Below are positions 3,211-10,668 of a DNA stretch of 64,000 bases, in pieces. The stretch is from an uncultured Desulfobacter sp. (GTDB lineage Bacteria; Desulfobacterota; Desulfobacteria; Desulfobacterales; Desulfobacteraceae). The first letter of the stretch is position 1, and each line of letters begins with the position of its first letter. The notes beneath the pieces are model-generated. The model worked only from the letters and a program-made list of their open reading frames with translations, did no database searches and was not told the origin of the DNA. Position numbers and translations under genes: made by a program. Where the stretch lies: positions 806,001 to 870,000 of the forward strand of contig NZ_OY762229.1 of NCBI RefSeq assembly GCF_963665355.1, in the 5' to 3' direction.

Positions 3211-5358
3211 ATGAATCAACGCATCTTTAAAGTACTCACTCTTGGCCTGCTTATCCTGGGTGTTATCCTGTTTTTCTCATTGGGCCTTCACCGGCAGCTG
3301 ACCTTTGAGGCCCTCAAATCCCAGCAGACCGCCATGGAACAGCTGTATGCCGAAAACACAGCCCAGACCATTCTGGTATATGCGGCGGTCTATATCCTTA
3401 TCACCGCACTGTCACTTCCGGGGGCTACGGTGATGTCCCTGGCAGGCGGTGCTGTGTTCGGTCTTTGGGCCGGCACACTCATTGTCTCTTTTGCCAGCAC
3501 CATCGGTGCGACCCTGGCCTTTCTTGGATCAAGATTTCTGTTAAGGGATTTCATCCAGAATCGATTTTCCGACCGCCTTAAGAAAATAAATGAGGGCATT
3601 GAAACCGACGGGCCTTTTTATCTTTTCACCCTGCGCCTGGTGCCGGTGTTCCCCTTTTTTGTGATCAACCTTGTCATGGGGCTGACCCCCATCAAGACGG
3701 GTATATTTTATATCGTAAGCCAGGTGGGTATGCTTCCGGGGACCCTTGCCTACATCAATGCCGGTACCCAGTTATCCCGGGTGGAAACCCCATCGGAAAT
3801 TCTTTCCTTGCCATTGCTGGCCTCCTTTGCCCTTCTAGGTGTTTTCCCCTGGATTGCAAAGGCATTCACCGGATTTTTGAAAAAACGGCGGATCATGGCA
3901 AAATTTTCCAAACCATCAAAGTTTGACTACAACCTGGTGGTTATCGGTGCCGGTTCTGCAGGCCTTGTGACCGCTTATATTGCAGCGGCTGTGAAGGCTG
4001 GTGTGGCATTGGTGGAAAAGGACAAAATGGGGGGAGATTGCCTGAACACGGGATGTGTGCCCAGCAAAGCCCTGCTGCGTTCGGCAAAAATGCTCTCCTA
4101 TGCCAGAAGGGCCAGGGAGTTTGGTTTTGAACATGCCCATGTTGACTTTCAGTTTAAAGCGGTCATGGATCGGGTGGGCGAGATTATTAAAAAAATAGAA
4201 CCCCACGATTCTGTGGAGCGGTATACCCAGCTCGGGGTGGACTGCATCCGGGGCGAGGCCCGGATTCTCTCCCCCTACAAAATTGAGGTGAACGGTGAAG
4301 TCATCACCACCCGCAGCATTGTCGTGGCAACGGGTGGCCGGCCCAGGGTCCCGGCCATCCCCGGCCTCGGCCAGGTGCCGTATTTTACCTCGGACACGAT
4401 CTGGTCTTTAAGGGATTTGCCCCAAAGGCTGGTGGTGCTGGGGGGCGGTCCCATCGGATGCGAGCTTAGCCAGGCCTTTGCCCGTTTGGGGGCCCAGGTC
4501 ACTCTGGTGGGCAGGGCGGCCCGGATCATGGGCCGGGAGGATAAGGATGTGTCCGATCTTATCCAGGAAGCCTTTGCCCGGGAAGGTATTCAGGTCCTCA
4601 CCGGGCATGCGGTAAAGGAAATCCGGGTGGACAATGACGAAAAAAAGCTGATCTGCCTCAGGAATTCCGACGGACAAGAGGTAATACTTGGGTTTGACGC
4701 CATTTTGATTGCCGTGGGCCGTGCGGCCAATACCAAAGGGTTTGGACTGGAAGAACTTGGGGTGGCGCTGAACCCCGATGGCACCATTAAAACCAATAAA
4801 TGGCTGCAAACCACCATTCCCAATATTTATGCGGCCGGAGATGTTGCAGGCCCTTACCAGTTCACCCATGTGGCCTCCCACCAGGCCTGGTATGCATCTG
4901 TAAACGCATTGTTCGGTTCTTTTAAAAAATTTACGGCAGACTACAGGGTGATCCCCTGGTGCACCTTTACAGATCCCGAAGTGGCCCGGGTGGGAATGAA
5001 CGAAAACGATTGTCTTGAAGCCAGCATTCCTTACGAGGTGACCTGCTACGGGATTGACGATCTGGACCGTGCCATTGCCGATTCCGAAGCCCGGGGATTT
5101 GTCAAGGTGCTGACCGTGCCCAAAAAGGACAGAATCCTGGGGGCAACCATTGTGGGAGCCCATGCCGGAGATTTGATCCATGAATTTATTCTGGCCATGA
5201 AATATAATATCGGACTCAACAAAATCCTTGGTACCATTCATATTTACCCGACCCTGGCCGAATCCAGCCGATTTACCGCAGGTGTCTGGAAAAGAGCCAG
5301 GGTGCCGAAAACCGCTTTGGGAATTGTTGCGCGGTTTCTGGCCTGGCAGCGCAAATAG
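3211..5358 (+). CDS. TVP38/TMEM64 membrane domain fused to MerA/Lpd-like flavoprotein disulfide reductase
   Basis: A 715-residue fusion. Residues 1-225 are a TVP38/TMEM64 (SNARE-associated, DedA-like) membrane domain with several helices. After a basic linker comes a complete class I pyridine nucleotide-disulfide oxidoreductase: FAD motif GAGSAG near residue 245, redox-active Cys277 and Cys282 in GGDCLNTGCVPSKAL, and NAD(P)-binding GGGPIGCE. The C-terminal dimerisation domain has IHIYPTLAE near residue 676. In that motif Tyr replaces the His of lipoamide dehydrogenases, as in mercuric-reductase relatives. There is no N-terminal HMA domain and no C-terminal Cys pair, so mercury reduction is not supported. 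It is first in a five-gene operon, 48 bp before the next start codon. It may move electrons to a thiol, quinone or metalloid substrate at the membrane. Domains are certain; substrate is unknown. Confidence 0.9.
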   Translation: MNQRIFKVLTLGLLILGVILFFSLGLHRQLTFEALKSQQTAMEQLYAENTAQTILVYAAVYILITALSLPGATVMSLAGGAVFGLWAGTLIVSFASTIGATLAFLGSRFLLRDFIQNRFSDRLKKINEGIETDGPFYLFTLRLVPVFPFFVINLVMGLTPIKTGIFYIVSQVGMLPGTLAYINAGTQLSRVETPSEILSLPLLASFALLGVFPWIAKAFTGFLKKRRIMAKFSKPSKFDYNLVVIGAGSAGLVTAYIAAAVKAGVALVEKDKMGGDCLNTGCVPSKALLRSAKMLSYARRAREFGFEHAHVDFQFKAVMDRVGEIIKKIEPHDSVERYTQLGVDCIRGEARILSPYKIEVNGEVITTRSIVVATGGRPRVPAIPGLGQVPYFTSDTIWSLRDLPQRLVVLGGGPIGCELSQAFARLGAQVTLVGRAARIMGREDKDVSDLIQEAFAREGIQVLTGHAVKEIRVDNDEKKLICLRNSDGQEVILGFDAILIAVGRAANTKGFGLEELGVALNPDGTIKTNKWLQTTIPNIYAAGDVAGPYQFTHVASHQAWYASVNALFGSFKKFTADYRVIPWCTFTDPEVARVGMNENDCLEASIPYEVTCYGIDDLDRAIADSEARGFVKVLTVPKKDRILGATIVGAHAGDLIHEFILAMKYNIGLNKILGTIHIYPTLAESSRFTAGVWKRARVPKTALGIVARFLAWQRK

Positions 5359-5406
5359 CCTATTTTTAAACATAGATACATGCACAACAATAAAACGGAG
5401 TACGCC

Positions 5407-8400
5407 ATGGACACCGCTCAGTACAATAGCTGGATCAGACTTGAACAGGACAGCACGGCAGTATATGTCAACCCCGATTCTGTGGACTGGATCGTGCCCA
5501 GTGCCGCAGGAGACCGGCTGCTTCAAAAGCTTATGTCGCCCAAAGGGCAGAAGGGGATGAACCATGAGCCGGGGCCGTCTTTGGCACCCGGTAATACGGA
5601 TTTTAACACCGTCATTCGTGAATCCCAGTTTCTCTCCTTATTAAAATCACCGGACGTGGCCGATTACAAGGGCCGAGCCCATGCATTAACCCTTAAATCG
5701 TTGAAAGAGTTCTGGCTGCATATCACCGACCAGTGCAACCTTGCCTGCCGTCACTGTCTTTTTTCCTGTTCATCAAAAACAAACCGGACCATGGATTTTG
5801 ACATGATCACCTCCACGGTTTTCCAGGCCTATGGTCTGGGCACCCGGATTTTTTATTTAACCGGCGGAGAGCCCCTGGTTCACCCGGATTTCCAGAAAAT
5901 ATGCCGGCTCATTTTAAATGAATACTCCGACACCATGCTGGTGATCTTAACCAACGGGATACTGGTTCCGGCCCACCTGGATTTTTTCAACACCTTGCCG
6001 TGCGACCGCCTGTTTCTCCAGGTCAGCCTGGATGGGATAGAAGAGACCAACGACCGGTTACGGGGCAGTGGCGCATTTGCCAAAACAACCGCCGCCCTCG
6101 GGGCCCTGAAAGGATCGAATATCACCACCACCCTGTCCATGGTGGTGCACCCGGATAATTTTCATCAGATGACAAAGATGGTGGAACTTGCGGTGGAGTT
6201 TTCGGTTAACGCCATCCATTACATGTGGCTTTTAACCACGGGGCGGGCATCCGCCCAGCCCGCGGTGCCCATGGATGAGTTGTTCAATTCTCTGATTGAA
6301 GCCCACGGCATGGCGGAAAACCACGGCCTGGCCATTGATAATATCACCAACCTGGCCGCCAGGGTCTTCTCCACCCCCGGCACCAGATACGACCTGGGTA
6401 ACGCCGGGTGGGAGTCCCTGGCGTTGGCCCCCGGCGGCATGATCTATCCCACCCCGGCCCTGATCGGCCGTAAAGAAACAGAGTGCGGCCAGATTTCCCA
6501 GGGACTGGAGACGGTCTGGCGCAACAGTGAAGTCCTTGAAACCCTGCGAAGTTTATCGGTGAAAGCTGATCCTGTATGCGGGAACCACCCATTAAAATAC
6601 ATTGTGGGCGGCCCGGACATTGATCACAGCTTTCATACCGGCGGATCATACCTTGGGCACGACCCCTACCTGCCTTTGTATGGCCGTCTGGCATTGTGGT
6701 TGATGGTCCGATCAGCCCAAATCACCCAAGAAGCGCCCTGGCCCCAGATCCGGCGCAAAATGGGGGAGAAGCTGCTGCATTGTGAAAAGGAGGGAGAAGT
6801 TGTGGCCCTGACCCACTCCAATTGTGTGCTCACCCTGGCCGATACCCATGGTGTTGTGGGTCAGTTTTATTCGGCTGCCGCACAACAGGAGAATACGGAC
6901 ATCACCAATCCGGTCTGCTATCCCGATTCTGAAATGCCTCACATCCCCCCATATGCCAGGATTCGTTCCTATGGGTGCGGAAGCCCGGTCCTGGATGCAG
7001 GCATCTCTTTGGGGGATACTGTGGTTGATCTTGGCTGCGGCGCAGGCGTAGAGTGCTACATTGCCGCCCGGAAAACAGGTCCTTCGGGGCAGGTCGTCGG
7101 GGTTGACATGCTGGACCACATGCTGGCACTGGCCCGAAAACCCCTTGAAGATGTGGCCCAAAACCTGGGGTACCGGAACGTCTCCTTTAAAAAAGGGTTT
7201 CTTGAGCAACTGCCCCTGGCAGATGAAACCGTGGATCTGGTCATCTCCAACTGCGTCATCAATCTATCCCAGGACAAACGGCAGACCTTTGCTGAAATTT
7301 TTCGCATACTGGCCCCCGGCGGACGCATTTTTATTTCCGATGTGGTCACCGATGATCCCTGCCCGCCTGAAATCCAGAATGACGCCGTGCTCCGGGGGGC
7401 ATGTCTGTCGGGAGCCCTTGTGCAGCCCCAGCTGGTGAGCATCCTGGAATCCGCCGGATTCAGCCGGATCAGGGTGGTGAAACGCTTTTTTTACAAAGAG
7501 GTGTTGAACCACAAATTTTATGCCGTCACATATACGGCTTTTCGGCCCAAGAATGGGGAAAAAACCATGATTTTTTACCCGGGCCCCCATGCTGCAGTGA
7601 TGACTGACCACGGGCAGCTGCTTTTACGCGGGCAAACGTCGGAATCCATCAGGCCCTCCGATGCCCGGGAGGACACGACGATTTTTGAACTGGATCATAT
7701 GGGCAGTGTGTCCAATATCGAAGCCATGAACGCCTGCAGCTGCGCGTTGCCCCCCCCGCCTGTGGACGAAAAAACCGTCACCTCGGGCCAAAAAGCGTCT
7801 GTCCAAGAGAATCTGGTGATGTCAGATATCCAGGCAGCCCCGTCCCTGACAATGGGTACGAAGTTTCAACAGGACTGCATGTTATGCGGCCGGCCACTGG
7901 TCTATCTGGAAGAACAAAGGCCGGAAGCCTGCGTCTTCTGCGGCAAGAAATACCCTGCCAACGCCCTATGCGAGCAAGGGCATTTTGTCTGCGACCACTG
8001 CCATGGAAAAGATATTGTGGATGTGGTCAAACACATCTGCACCCATACCGATGCAACAGACATGATCGATCTGATGAACCAGCTTCGCAGTCATCCCTCA
8101 TTTCCCCTCCATGGCCCCGAGCACCATTTTGCAGTGCCCGGTGTCATTACCGCAGTATATAGAAATCTGGGCGGTGATATCACAGACAGCGACATCATCA
8201 CGGCCATTGACCGGGGAAGAGCCGTTCCCGGCGGTGTCTGCGCATTCTGGGGGACATGTGGCGCCGCTGTGGGGGCGGGAATTGCCTTGGGGGTCATTTT
8301 GAAAAGCACCCCGTTAAAACCCAAAGCCAGACAAATAGTCCAAAAGGTGTCCGAAACTATTATCCACGACCTGAACCGTATAGAGGCGGCCCGCTGCTGC

Positions 8401-8559
8401 CAGCGGGAGGTCTGGACAACATTTAAGACCATGGCCCGCTTGTCTGAAGTCTACTTGCCCCTGATCCTGAGGGCGCACGGGGATGTGCAGTGCCGGCAAC
8501 AGGGCAAAAACAGAGAGTGTATCCGACAAACCTGCCCCTATTTCAAGGTGTCAAAATGA
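5407..8559 (+). CDS. Radical SAM / ArsM-like arsenite methyltransferase / Cys-rich DUF5714-like trifunctional fusion
   Basis: A 1050-residue fusion. I use the ATG at 5407, preceded by CGGAG at 6-nt spacing; an upstream ATG at 5380 is less likely. The first ~80 residues look PqqD-like (weak). A radical SAM domain follows with the 4Fe-4S motif CNLACRHC starting at Cys110 and the SAM-binding YLTGGEPL. Its C-terminal extension is SPASM-like but poor in Cys. Next is a class I methyltransferase (VDLGCGAG) with the three arsenic-binding Cys positions of ArsM/AS3MT: SYGCGSPV (about 524), SNCVINLS (about 616) and GACLSGAL (about 666). The last ~230 residues hold a Cys-rich zinc-ribbon-like start (CMLCGRP near 824, then CVFCGKKY and CDHC) of the DUF5714 type. 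Expected: arsenic (or related metalloid) methylation coupled to a radical step. The fusion architecture is unusual. Confidence 0.87.
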   Translation: MDTAQYNSWIRLEQDSTAVYVNPDSVDWIVPSAAGDRLLQKLMSPKGQKGMNHEPGPSLAPGNTDFNTVIRESQFLSLLKSPDVADYKGRAHALTLKSLKEFWLHITDQCNLACRHCLFSCSSKTNRTMDFDMITSTVFQAYGLGTRIFYLTGGEPLVHPDFQKICRLILNEYSDTMLVILTNGILVPAHLDFFNTLPCDRLFLQVSLDGIEETNDRLRGSGAFAKTTAALGALKGSNITTTLSMVVHPDNFHQMTKMVELAVEFSVNAIHYMWLLTTGRASAQPAVPMDELFNSLIEAHGMAENHGLAIDNITNLAARVFSTPGTRYDLGNAGWESLALAPGGMIYPTPALIGRKETECGQISQGLETVWRNSEVLETLRSLSVKADPVCGNHPLKYIVGGPDIDHSFHTGGSYLGHDPYLPLYGRLALWLMVRSAQITQEAPWPQIRRKMGEKLLHCEKEGEVVALTHSNCVLTLADTHGVVGQFYSAAAQQENTDITNPVCYPDSEMPHIPPYARIRSYGCGSPVLDAGISLGDTVVDLGCGAGVECYIAARKTGPSGQVVGVDMLDHMLALARKPLEDVAQNLGYRNVSFKKGFLEQLPLADETVDLVISNCVINLSQDKRQTFAEIFRILAPGGRIFISDVVTDDPCPPEIQNDAVLRGACLSGALVQPQLVSILESAGFSRIRVVKRFFYKEVLNHKFYAVTYTAFRPKNGEKTMIFYPGPHAAVMTDHGQLLLRGQTSESIRPSDAREDTTIFELDHMGSVSNIEAMNACSCALPPPPVDEKTVTSGQKASVQENLVMSDIQAAPSLTMGTKFQQDCMLCGRPLVYLEEQRPEACVFCGKKYPANALCEQGHFVCDHCHGKDIVDVVKHICTHTDATDMIDLMNQLRSHPSFPLHGPEHHFAVPGVITAVYRNLGGDITDSDIITAIDRGRAVPGGVCAFWGTCGAAVGAGIALGVILKSTPLKPKARQIVQKVSETIIHDLNRIEAARCCQREVWTTFKTMARLSEVYLPLILRAHGDVQCRQQGKNRECIRQTCPYFKVSK

Positions 8560-9224
8560 CAACTGACAACGCCGTCATCGTTTTCATCAAATCCCCGGAA
8601 AAAGGCCGGGTCAAGACCCGGCTGGCCAAGGGTGTGGGGGAGACAGCGGCTCTTGAATTATACCGCTGCTTTGTGATGGATGTTCTGGATATGGTTAGAT
8701 CAACCCCTTTCACGTTGCGGGTGTACCACCATCCAGAAAACGCTTTTAACCGTATCAGATCCTGGCTGGGAGACGATCCGGATCTTTTCCCCCAAAAAGG
8801 CGCCACCCTGGGAGACAAAATGGCAAATGCCCTGGCCGAAACATTTGCCGCAGGATTTGAACGAGCCGTTCTCATCGGCTCTGACTTGCCGGATCTTCCG
8901 CCTGGGATCATTGATACGGCATTTAAAGGTCTGGATCAGTGCAGCGCGGCCATCGGCCCAAGCCGGGATGGCGGATATTATCTGATCGGGTTTACGGCCA
9001 TAGGATTTACCCCCCGGATATTCCACGGCATCCCCTGGGGAACCGATCAGGTCTTTGATGTGACCCTGAACAGATTTTCGAATCATCATGTCTCACACTA
9101 TACGCTGCCCGTGTGGCAGGACATTGATACCCAAGAGGACTTACAATGTCTCGATCCTGATCCGGCCGGCAACACGGCCTTACACACAACCGCTTACCTC
9201 TTAAAACAAGGAGTGAAGCTTTGA
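8556..9224 (+). CDS. DUF2064 / TIGR04282-type glycosyltransferase A family protein
   Basis: A 222-residue soluble protein of the DUF2064 family, the nucleotide-sugar transferase-like fold often annotated as an arsenosugar biosynthesis glycosyltransferase. Visible signatures are the N-terminal VIVFIKSPEKGRVKTRLAK, typical of MobA/CobY-like nucleotidyl binding, LIGSDLPDLPPGII with the DxD-like acidic residues, and GPSRDGGYYLIG. The ATG at 8556 overlaps the stop of the previous gene (ATGA), so translation is coupled. It probably handles a nucleotide-activated sugar in the same pathway as the ArsM-like fusion. Function is inferred from family context, not shown. Confidence 0.88.
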   Translation: MTTDNAVIVFIKSPEKGRVKTRLAKGVGETAALELYRCFVMDVLDMVRSTPFTLRVYHHPENAFNRIRSWLGDDPDLFPQKGATLGDKMANALAETFAAGFERAVLIGSDLPDLPPGIIDTAFKGLDQCSAAIGPSRDGGYYLIGFTAIGFTPRIFHGIPWGTDQVFDVTLNRFSNHHVSHYTLPVWQDIDTQEDLQCLDPDPAGNTALHTTAYLLKQGVKL

Positions 9225-9979
9225 TTCGACAAAAACAAATCTGGATGATCCTCGGCGTTATCATGGTTTTCCACGTCGCCGTTGTGGTTTGCGCCGAGCC
9301 CATTGTGACCGTAGGGAACTTTTCCCAGGCAGATCCAGGAGCAATACTTCCCCGATTCTGGGAGCCGTTAACATTTAAAAAGATAAAAACCCATACCTCA
9401 TACGAGATCGTTGAAGACCGGGGGCGAACCGTGGTCAAGGCCCATAGCCGGGCATCCGCTTCGGGGCTGATCCGCAAAATCAGCATTGATGTAGAAAAAT
9501 ATCCCATCGTTCAATGGCAATGGAAAATCACAGGCATTAATAAAAAAACCGATGTGACCCAGAAAAGCGGGGATGATTATCCGGCACGAATTTATGTGGC
9601 GTTTGTATACAATCCTGATGAGGCAGGGTTCTGGGAAAAAACCCGATTTGAAACAGTCCGCCTGATATACGGCGAGTATCCGCCTGCAACAGTGGTAACC
9701 TATATCTGGGCCACCCGCGTCCCGAAAGAGACCCGGGTGCCCAACCCCTTCGTTAAAAGGGTTATGATGATTGCTGTCCAGAGCGGCGAAGAGAACGTGG
9801 GCACCTGGGTCACCGAGGAACGCAATATTTATCAGGATTATCTGGACAGTTTCGGCCACCCGCCTCCCGTCACTTCGGGGGTGGCGATCATGACCGACAC
9901 GGACAATACGGGTGAGGCGTCAACGGCCTTTTACGGGGATATTATATTTAAATCAACTTCAGGCCCCCCTGTCCAATGA
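9221..9979 (+). CDS. Secreted DUF3047 family protein
   Basis: A 252-residue protein starting at TTG (9221), preceded by AAGGAG at good spacing and overlapping the previous stop (TTGA). Residues 1-27 form a signal peptide (hydrophobic IWMILGVIMVFHVAVVV, then CAEP, a possible cleavage or lipidation site). The body matches DUF3047 in my memory: YPIVQWQWKITG, a conserved DDYPARIYV, and a late TDTDNTGEAS segment. DUF3047 proteins are predicted periplasmic beta-sandwich proteins of unknown role. Its place inside the operon, with coupled neighbours on both sides, suggests it acts on the envelope-facing end of the same pathway, for example binding a product. That is inference. Confidence 0.82.
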   Translation: MIRQKQIWMILGVIMVFHVAVVVCAEPIVTVGNFSQADPGAILPRFWEPLTFKKIKTHTSYEIVEDRGRTVVKAHSRASASGLIRKISIDVEKYPIVQWQWKITGINKKTDVTQKSGDDYPARIYVAFVYNPDEAGFWEKTRFETVRLIYGEYPPATVVTYIWATRVPKETRVPNPFVKRVMMIAVQSGEENVGTWVTEERNIYQDYLDSFGHPPPVTSGVAIMTDTDNTGEASTAFYGDIIFKSTSGPPVQ

Positions 9980-10668
9980 AGCCTGTGATCTCCGTTGTCA
10001 TGCCGGTATACGGCGAAGCGGACCGAATCAACCGGACCATTGACAACTTTAAATCATCGGTATCGCAGATGTTGTGGGCCATAGAAATTATTGTGGTGGA
10101 CGGTGACCCTGACACACGCACCCTTAAAGCGATCAATGACCCGGATGTTATAAAAACAGCATCACCGGCGGGCCGGGGCGTACAGATGAACCATGGCGCC
10201 CGGATCGCAACCGCAGACCTGCTGCTCTTTCTTCATGCAGATACCGTTTTGCCTGCCAATGCTTTCAATGCAATTGTGCATGCCTGCCGGGATAAGGGGA
10301 TTGCTGCCGGCGCATTTGATCTGACCATTGGTGCATCCCATCCGGGGTTCCGGATCATCGAAAAAGCGGCAAGCCTGCGTTCCCGGATCACCCGGATCCC
10401 CTTTGGAGATCAGGCCGTATTCTTTAAAGCACAATGCTTTTGGAAATTGGGAGGATATAAACCGATTGCACTGATGGAAGATGTGGACATCATGCGCAGG
10501 CTTAAGAAAAAAGGATATAAGATCCGGTTCATTTCAGATCCGGTTGTGACCTCGGCCCGGCGATGGAAAAAGGAAGGTATGGTATATACAACCATCCGCA
10601 ACTGGGTTCTTCAACTGTTTTTTTATATGGGGGCCAGCCCGGAAAAATTAAAAGCGTACTACCAATAG
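9976..10668 (+). CDS. Family 2 glycosyltransferase (TIGR04283-like)
   Basis: A 230-residue GT-A glycosyltransferase. It begins ISVVMPVYGEADRI, has the metal-binding LLFLHADTVLP (DxD-like), an FGDQAVFF segment and the acceptor-side LMEDVDIMRRLKKKG. The compact length and the ED motif fit TIGR04283, a family that is repeatedly found with TIGR04282 proteins and called arsenosugar biosynthesis glycosyltransferase. The ATG overlaps the previous stop by 4 bp, making it the last gene of a coupled operon. It probably transfers a hexose or pentose to the methylated product or to a lipid carrier. The family is secure; substrate is inferred. Confidence 0.88.
   Translation: MKPVISVVMPVYGEADRINRTIDNFKSSVSQMLWAIEIIVVDGDPDTRTLKAINDPDVIKTASPAGRGVQMNHGARIATADLLLFLHADTVLPANAFNAIVHACRDKGIAAGAFDLTIGASHPGFRIIEKAASLRSRITRIPFGDQAVFFKAQCFWKLGGYKPIALMEDVDIMRRLKKKGYKIRFISDPVVTSARRWKKEGMVYTTIRNWVLQLFFYMGASPEKLKAYYQ

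Follow-up and report, generated by a model that had tools for sequence, protein, structure and literature searches.

The window, a stretch of 64,000 nucleotides from an uncultured Desulfobacter sp. (positions 806001-870000 of contig C2 in a genome of 5.64 Mb), carries at 3211-10668 five genes on the forward strand, one of which encodes a fusion of a radical S-adenosylmethionine (SAM) domain, an ArsM-like methyltransferase and DUF5714. With somewhat better than even confidence we read this locus as one for arsenosugar-type organoarsenical biosynthesis in which the fusion replaces separate ArsM and ArsS proteins. It is taken as a stand-in for the two because its accessory gene families are shared with ArsS loci, because ArsS has a role in arsenosugars, and because the fusion holds the sole ArsM-like domain of its own genome (223.5 bits, as against 64.9 for the next best match). 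According to the excerpt of PMC12159101 at hand, ArsS adenosylates arsenic in arsenosugar biosynthesis, and an excerpt of PMC8552651 assigns the first arsenosugar steps in Synechocystis to separate ArsM and ArsS proteins. The families of the five proteins, which the first-pass annotation had named from the letters and their translations, were confirmed by open reading frames (ORFs) and by Pfam and NCBIfam profile searches:

3211-5358, forward strand: TVP38/VTT-flavoprotein gene (Pfam, NCBIfam).
5380-8559, forward strand: radical SAM/ArsM-like/DUF5714 fusion gene, 1059 amino acids (ORF, Pfam, NCBIfam).
8556-9224, forward strand: TIGR04282/DUF2064 nucleotidyl- or glycosyltransferase-like gene; a longer GTG-start ORF runs from 8490 (Pfam, NCBIfam).
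9221-9979, forward strand: gene of a DUF3047 protein with a hydrophobic, signal-like N-terminal segment as read from the sequence (ORF, Pfam).
9976-10668, forward strand: TIGR04283 family 2 glycosyltransferase gene (Pfam, NCBIfam).

The flavoprotein and fusion genes are separated by 21 bp, the stop codon of the fusion shares the four letters ATGA (8556-8559) with the ATG of the TIGR04282 gene, and further 4-bp overlaps lie at 9221-9224 and 9976-9979. The ORF coordinates thus bear out the 4-bp overlaps proposed earlier for the last three junctions, provided that the TIGR04282 gene starts at ATG 8556 and the DUF3047 gene at TTG 9221. With the short gap and the three overlaps, the layout fits a single operon.

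Fusions of this kind form a genuine, conserved family. By hand count it is present in 30 of the 291 genomes of the class, our own included, as full copies, contig-cut pieces or, in one case (G124), an interrupted gene, and all that is present in a 31st genome (G078) is a fragment at the end of a contig. The class search, in which at most two candidates per genome were scored, gave some match in 121 of the 291, mostly stand-alone ArsM. Within the genus, 6 of 15 genomes carry the fusion and 9 do not. A set of named genomes, being the best 80 of 477 stretches that encode some relative of the fusion, has a frame of at least 960 amino acids in 76 cases; these fusions are mostly from Desulfo- and Deltaproteobacteria, several are labelled just Proteobacteria or Pseudomonadota, and a few are from Atribacterota, Planctomycetota, Myxococcales and Thermoanaerobaculia, with metagenome-assembled genomes of Desulfobacter postgatei among the closest named relatives. 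It may be noted that the class and named-genome sets overlap (some contigs are identical) and are not independent. Fusions were aligned as a set of 26 members and as a set of 53, the latter consisting of the window fusion with 52 of those 76 frames. The radical SAM cysteines C119, C123 and C126, the ArsM-type C533, C625 and C675 and 14 cysteines of residues 828-1059 are invariant in 53 of 53; C468 and C482 of the joining segment and C788 of the linker are also invariant across the aligned fusions. An AlphaFold2 model (mean predicted local distance difference test score 84.7), the alignment and the Pfam matches (Radical_SAM 115-270, Methyltransf_31 545-676, DUF5714 883-1055) divide the protein into the following parts:

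5413-5649, forward strand: residues 12-90, three strands and then helices, matching the N-terminal part of CteB (AlphaFold2 model, structure alignment).
5677-6729, forward strand: residues 100-450, radical SAM domain with CX3CX2C (C119/C123/C126) and a SPASM-like extension lacking most SPASM cysteines.
6730-6846, forward strand: residues 451-489, joining segment with invariant C468 and C482 (alignment).
6847-7704, forward strand: residues 490-775, ArsM-like methyltransferase with invariant C533, C625 and C675.
7726-7857, forward strand: residues 783-826, low-confidence linker with CxC (C786 in 96%, C788 invariant).
7861-8556, forward strand: residues 828-1059, CxxC pairs and DUF5714, with 14 invariant cysteines including C1006-C1007, and HGPEHH.

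The claim that the methyltransferase keeps all three arsenic-binding cysteine contexts of ArsM holds across the family (C533 in YGCG, C625 in SNC, and C675), and we take these residues to correspond to Cys72, Cys174 and Cys224 of CmArsM. The predicted structure of this part has the ArsM fold. Two loci (L039:7607-10570 and L040:7397-10345) have a natural deletion of about 35 residues in the region of the ArsM C-terminal strand (window residues ~737-771). In G124, of the same genus, the fusion gene is broken near residue 611 by a transposase-like insertion (L056:9163-10500) and the pathway looks lost.

The neighbourhood of the fusion was then compared among relatives, counting five partners (TIGR04282, TIGR04283, DUF3047, TVP38 and the flavoprotein) within 7 kb on either strand with family profiles made from the loci. 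Thirty of 36 class loci could be anchored (four without a fusion and two with short fusion pieces were dropped), as could 79 of the 80 named-genome loci. All five genes occur in the same order in four other genomes of the genus (G127, G209, G212, G230), and G124 retains the flavoprotein and both transferases, DUF3047 being absent. G220 belongs to another genus, and its fusion lies in two pieces on separate contigs, with the TVP38-flavoprotein gene by one piece and the TIGR04282, DUF3047 and TIGR04283 genes by the other. Over the 30 class loci TIGR04282 was found in 12, TIGR04283 in 10, TVP38 in 9, and DUF3047 and the flavoprotein in 8 each; 13 loci have any partner and 11 at least three. Among the 79 named-genome loci 25 have any partner and 12 at least two. 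The order and strand of the partners vary, as in the divergent locus L124 and the Atribacterota locus L127. The co-occurrence on which the first-pass annotation staked its proposal is therefore found, since other genera also have sets of these families, in several arrangements of the genes. Of 80 fusions placed on a tree, 26 are linked to partners, 34 are unlinked and 20 were set as unknown owing to short flanks, and the linkage state changes at least 11 times; therefore linkage has been gained or lost repeatedly. Seven loci (L085-L089, L095 and L109, from Desulfobulbaceae, Desulfurivibrio and Delta- or Proteobacteria) have the fusion in a stable mutM/bioF/bioB-like context, named from translated starts, without the accessory genes.

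The same partners are found by ArsS, which is above cut-off in 77 of the 291 class genomes and not in our own. Sixty ArsS loci were fetched and 57 anchored. As 11 of the first 20 had been chosen for a nearby TIGR04283, the other 40, fetched regardless of partners, were counted separately, and of these 38 were anchored. In these 38 the flavoprotein is found 16 times, TVP38 8, TIGR04282 7, TIGR04283 5 and DUF3047 2; any of the five is present in 21 and at least two in 12. In L151 the genes for TVP38, flavoprotein, TIGR04283, DUF3047, the AhpD-like TIGR04169 and ArsS are consecutive, and in L189, L193, L197 and L209 a fused TVP38-flavoprotein gene adjoins ArsS. Stand-alone ArsM genes served as controls: none of the five partners was found in 18 anchored loci out of 20, about half of the 20 being shortened by contig ends, and since the partner profiles had window proteins as seeds and drew on fusion and ArsS loci, they could overlook distant copies close to the controls. 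For any partner, the comparison with these controls gives Fisher p = 2e-5 for ArsS (21/38 vs 0/18) and p = 0.014 for fusions outside our genus (7/24 vs 0/18), in tests that treat related genomes as independent. ArsS-linked and fusion-linked copies are intermixed in the partner trees. The minimum number of switches required by well-supported branches is 5 for the flavoprotein, 3 for TIGR04282, and 2 each for TIGR04283 and DUF3047; in the flavoprotein, TIGR04282 and TIGR04283 trees the labels are nonetheless more clustered than shuffled ones. On our reading the same accessory families serve either ArsS or the fusion. TIGR04169 lies beside ArsS in 27 of the 38 partner-blind loci (37 of 57 overall), and near the fusion in none of the 30 class or 79 named-genome loci.

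The earlier remark that the radical SAM domain lacks the look of ArsS is upheld: among the fusion proteins listed, the ArsS model TIGR04167 reaches at most 59.9 bits (cut-off 300), and it falls outside the best 25 of 90 families matched by the window fusion. When profile-aligned with 57 ArsS proteins, the fusion matches over no more than 155 core columns, the C-terminal part of ArsS staying unaligned, and it has no Pfam match to the Cys-rich C-terminal domain of ArsS. The sactipeptide maturase CteB matches the predicted fold of residues 17-449, and the match takes in the N-terminal part of CteB, which is presumably the recognition element (RRE) for ribosomally synthesized and post-translationally modified peptides (RiPPs). 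By sequence the N-terminal part of the fusion has no Pfam and no PqqD match, though its fold aligns with CteB from residue 17. The best NCBIfam radical SAM match is the SynChlorMet protein ScmF, with 89.3 bits and a cut-off of 400. SPASM requires about seven cysteines; in residues 340-490 only C369 (70%), C468, C480 (43%) and C482 are conserved in more than 30% of members, so that the auxiliary-cluster cysteines of SPASM are mostly not in place. The radical SAM half is therefore not ArsS, and as modelled it resembles in fold the RRE-radical SAM-SPASM proteins of the CteB type, minus most of the SPASM cysteines. No precursor-peptide gene recurs widely within 2.5 kb of the fusion: the largest small-ORF family is found in 9 of 78 loci with small ORFs, a test to which the window did not belong and which leaves a more distant gene possible, and its 8 members traced by motif are all in one clade of the fusion tree.

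The DUF5714 part (PF18978, 188.5 bits, gathering score 26.2) has a vicinal pair, C1006-C1007, that adjoins an HGPEHH-like motif. The model of MbdU, a metal-binding double selenoprotein (NF045648), covers residues 806-1057 at 134.5 bits, far below its cut-off of 600; no selenocysteine was seen in the aligned fusions. The portion of a review available to us (PMC13188914) gives the selenocysteine motif of MbdU as CU. In the literature searched, which includes few subscription journals, DUF5714 was not mentioned, nor did such a fusion appear in titles or abstract openings among the matches listed. A stand-alone DUF5714 gene in G056, 63% identical to the fusion domain, lies between TVP38-flavoprotein and DUF3047 genes (L042:2535-6384), i.e. 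in the place that the fusion has in the window; this genome, a draft of about 530 contigs in which mixing is possible, carries ArsS with TIGR04282-TIGR04283 on another contig. Other stand-alone DUF5714 genes (L166:7146-7832, L167:7640-8353, L046:1919-2719, L045:330-1028) have unrelated neighbours, by their translated starts genes for a short-chain dehydrogenase, a TonB-type receptor and an electron-transfer flavoprotein, which suggests a broader thiol or metal role for DUF5714.

Among the accessory proteins, the flavoprotein has the domains PF09335 (VTT_dom, residues 72-186), PF07992 (Pyr_redox_2, 240-559) and PF02852 (dimerisation, 581-685), and its oxidoreductase part is like MerA and lipoamide dehydrogenase, with the CxxxxC motif retained. 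MerA ends with a Cys pair; the C-terminal end of the flavoprotein sequence has none, and the score of 396.8 bits against the MerA model TIGR02053 is below the cut-off of 454.45. The protein thus appears MerA-like in sequence yet outside the MerA family by the curated cut-off. The TIGR04282, DUF3047 and TIGR04283 proteins are above their cut-offs (192.1 vs 134, 267.2 vs 27 and 229.1 vs 182 bits). If a genome holds about one TIGR04283 copy, such a neighbour within ~17 kb should by our estimate arise by chance at well below 1% of loci. Immediately upstream of the operon a divergent two-component system lies on the reverse strand (663-2883), with a histidine-kinase-like gene at 663-2174 and an OmpR-type regulator-like gene at 2131-2883, both named from reading the sequence. 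Kinase and regulator clusters are both ahead of the TVP38-flavoprotein gene in L066, and a kinase cluster is there in L067. It is possible that the upstream system regulates the operon.

Several results weigh against an arsenosugar role. The methyltransferase part scores 221 bits (223.5 in the genome scan) with the NCBIfam arsenite methyltransferase model NF008823, under the cut-off of 263, and because of this we call it ArsM-like and not ArsM. The genome search gave no Acr3 above cut-off (91.6 vs 282.8 bits). The radical SAM half, as modelled, looks most like the peptide maturases. Any partner is found in only 7 of the 24 class loci outside our genus and at least three in 5, and 17 of 30 class and 54 of 79 named-genome loci have no partner within 7 kb, some being contig-end cases and others genuine. 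When at least two partners are required, the comparison outside our genus with the controls (5/24) gives p = 0.06. Fusion and ArsS avoid each other to a slight degree (3/31 vs 74/260, p = 0.03, uncorrected for kinship). By themselves the TIGR04282 and TIGR04283 names are weak evidence for arsenosugar function. That of TIGR04283 proves little because the family is common in the class, being above cut-off in 171 of 291 genomes, and is present in 7 of the 9 same-genus genomes without the fusion (G021, G026, G064, G098, G100, G213 and G215; E <= 3.5e-65), none of which has ArsS above cut-off. The arsenosugar link drawn in the first-pass annotation is therefore strengthened by the partners of ArsS and not by these names, and our confidence is kept lower owing to the same-genus TIGR04283 genes and the p value of 0.06.

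Other explanations were considered against the same evidence. That the fusion performs another carbon-arsenic chemistry we consider unlikely: the retained ArsM cysteines and the non-ArsS radical SAM lineage would suit it, and ArsL appears in excerpts of PMC8552651 and PMC12159101 as a non-ArsS radical SAM enzyme that forms C-As bonds, but the partner families agree with those of ArsS loci and the ArsM part is far below the two arsinothricin ArsM models (173.4 vs 500 and 84.3 vs 240 bits). Plain metalloid detoxification, in which the fusion would only methylate As(III) (or Sb, Se, Te), its other domains giving electrons and its neighbours being unrelated, is in our judgement quite unlikely. The absence of partners by stand-alone ArsM genes (0/18) speaks against it and the invariant radical SAM motif would be left without a role, even if many fusions are without linked partners, the fusion is the only ArsM-like protein of its genome and TIGR04283 occurs in same-genus genomes lacking both fusion and ArsS. 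The CteB-like fold with its N-terminal part and the ScmF match would agree with a RiPP-like function, whereby the radical SAM half modifies a peptide or protein through an RRE-like domain, and either this product or a bound metalloid is the methylation substrate of the ArsM-like domain. Yet the SPASM cluster cysteines are largely missing, the N-terminal sequence does not match PqqD and no small ORF recurs by the fusion beyond relatives, which makes this improbable.

In the arsenosugar-type reading that we favour, the ArsM-like domain would bind trivalent arsenic at the three observed cysteines, within a fold that is predicted, and methylate it with SAM. The radical SAM domain, with a 4Fe-4S cluster on the observed CX3CX2C motif, would then add a C-As bond to the methylated arsenical, most likely by transfer of a 5'-deoxyadenosyl group as in ArsS. 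From its conserved cysteines, its similarity to MbdU and the absence of TIGR04169 near the fusion, DUF5714 may hold the arsenical, pass it on or keep it reduced, and perhaps takes over redox or thiol functions from the AhpD-like protein, which is missing here. Family and linkage suggest that the membrane-tethered flavoprotein gives thiol-level reduction, that TIGR04282 and TIGR04283 act on the nucleoside or sugar moiety and that DUF3047 works outside the cytoplasm. The first-pass annotation had considered a new organoarsenical or other methylated sugar compound as a possible product; the arsenosugar-type part of that idea has gained ground and the newness has not, since a different enzyme may well be making an arsenosugar that is already known. 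More tentatively, and with rather more doubt than trust, we propose a second, independent solution to arsenosugar-type synthesis that has spread in anaerobic Desulfobacterota, where one polypeptide methylates arsenic and then forms its C-As bond to a SAM-derived radical through a CteB-like radical SAM domain, with DUF5714 as a new arsenical-handling domain. What would be new here is the fused, non-ArsS radical SAM route in anaerobes, the canonical ArsS loci of the class sharing its partner families.

Among known systems, the ArsM and ArsS arsenosugar loci of the same class are alike in the ArsM-like protein with three arsenic-type cysteines, the radical SAM CX3CX2C and the partner families; unlike them, the window has one fused protein, a non-ArsS radical SAM domain, an extra DUF5714 and no TIGR04169 nearby. 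The ArsL/ArsM of arsinothricin, as far as the excerpt of PMC8552651 goes, also pair radical SAM and ArsM activity on arsenic, but as separate proteins, and the fusion is far below those ArsM model cut-offs. An ArsM-like domain is joined to another domain also in the ArsM/AhpD and ArsM/DUF2284 selenoproteins (NF041537 and NF041536, which match residues 525-708 and 528-707 with 129 vs 510 and 122 vs 575 bits, far under cut-off) and in ArsRM of Brevundimonas (as excerpted from PMC10190100), all without a radical SAM or DUF5714 part. MbdU resembles the DUF5714 region, its CU standing against C1006-C1007 of the fusion, but the fusion is under the MbdU cut-off, shows no selenocysteine and is joined to radical SAM and ArsM-like parts. 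The CteB-type maturases share the predicted fold of residues 17-449, whereas the fusion lacks most SPASM cysteines and no recurring precursor gene was found in the 78 loci.

Arsenosugars and arsenolipids are widespread. If the fusion carries out both reactions, arsenosugar production by anaerobic sulfate reducers would have gone unnoticed and arsS surveys would fail to detect it, and a single protein would make it possible to study directly which comes first, methylation or the radical formation of the C-As bond. DUF5714, DUF3047 and the TVP38-flavoprotein fusion would thereby gain a testable pathway.

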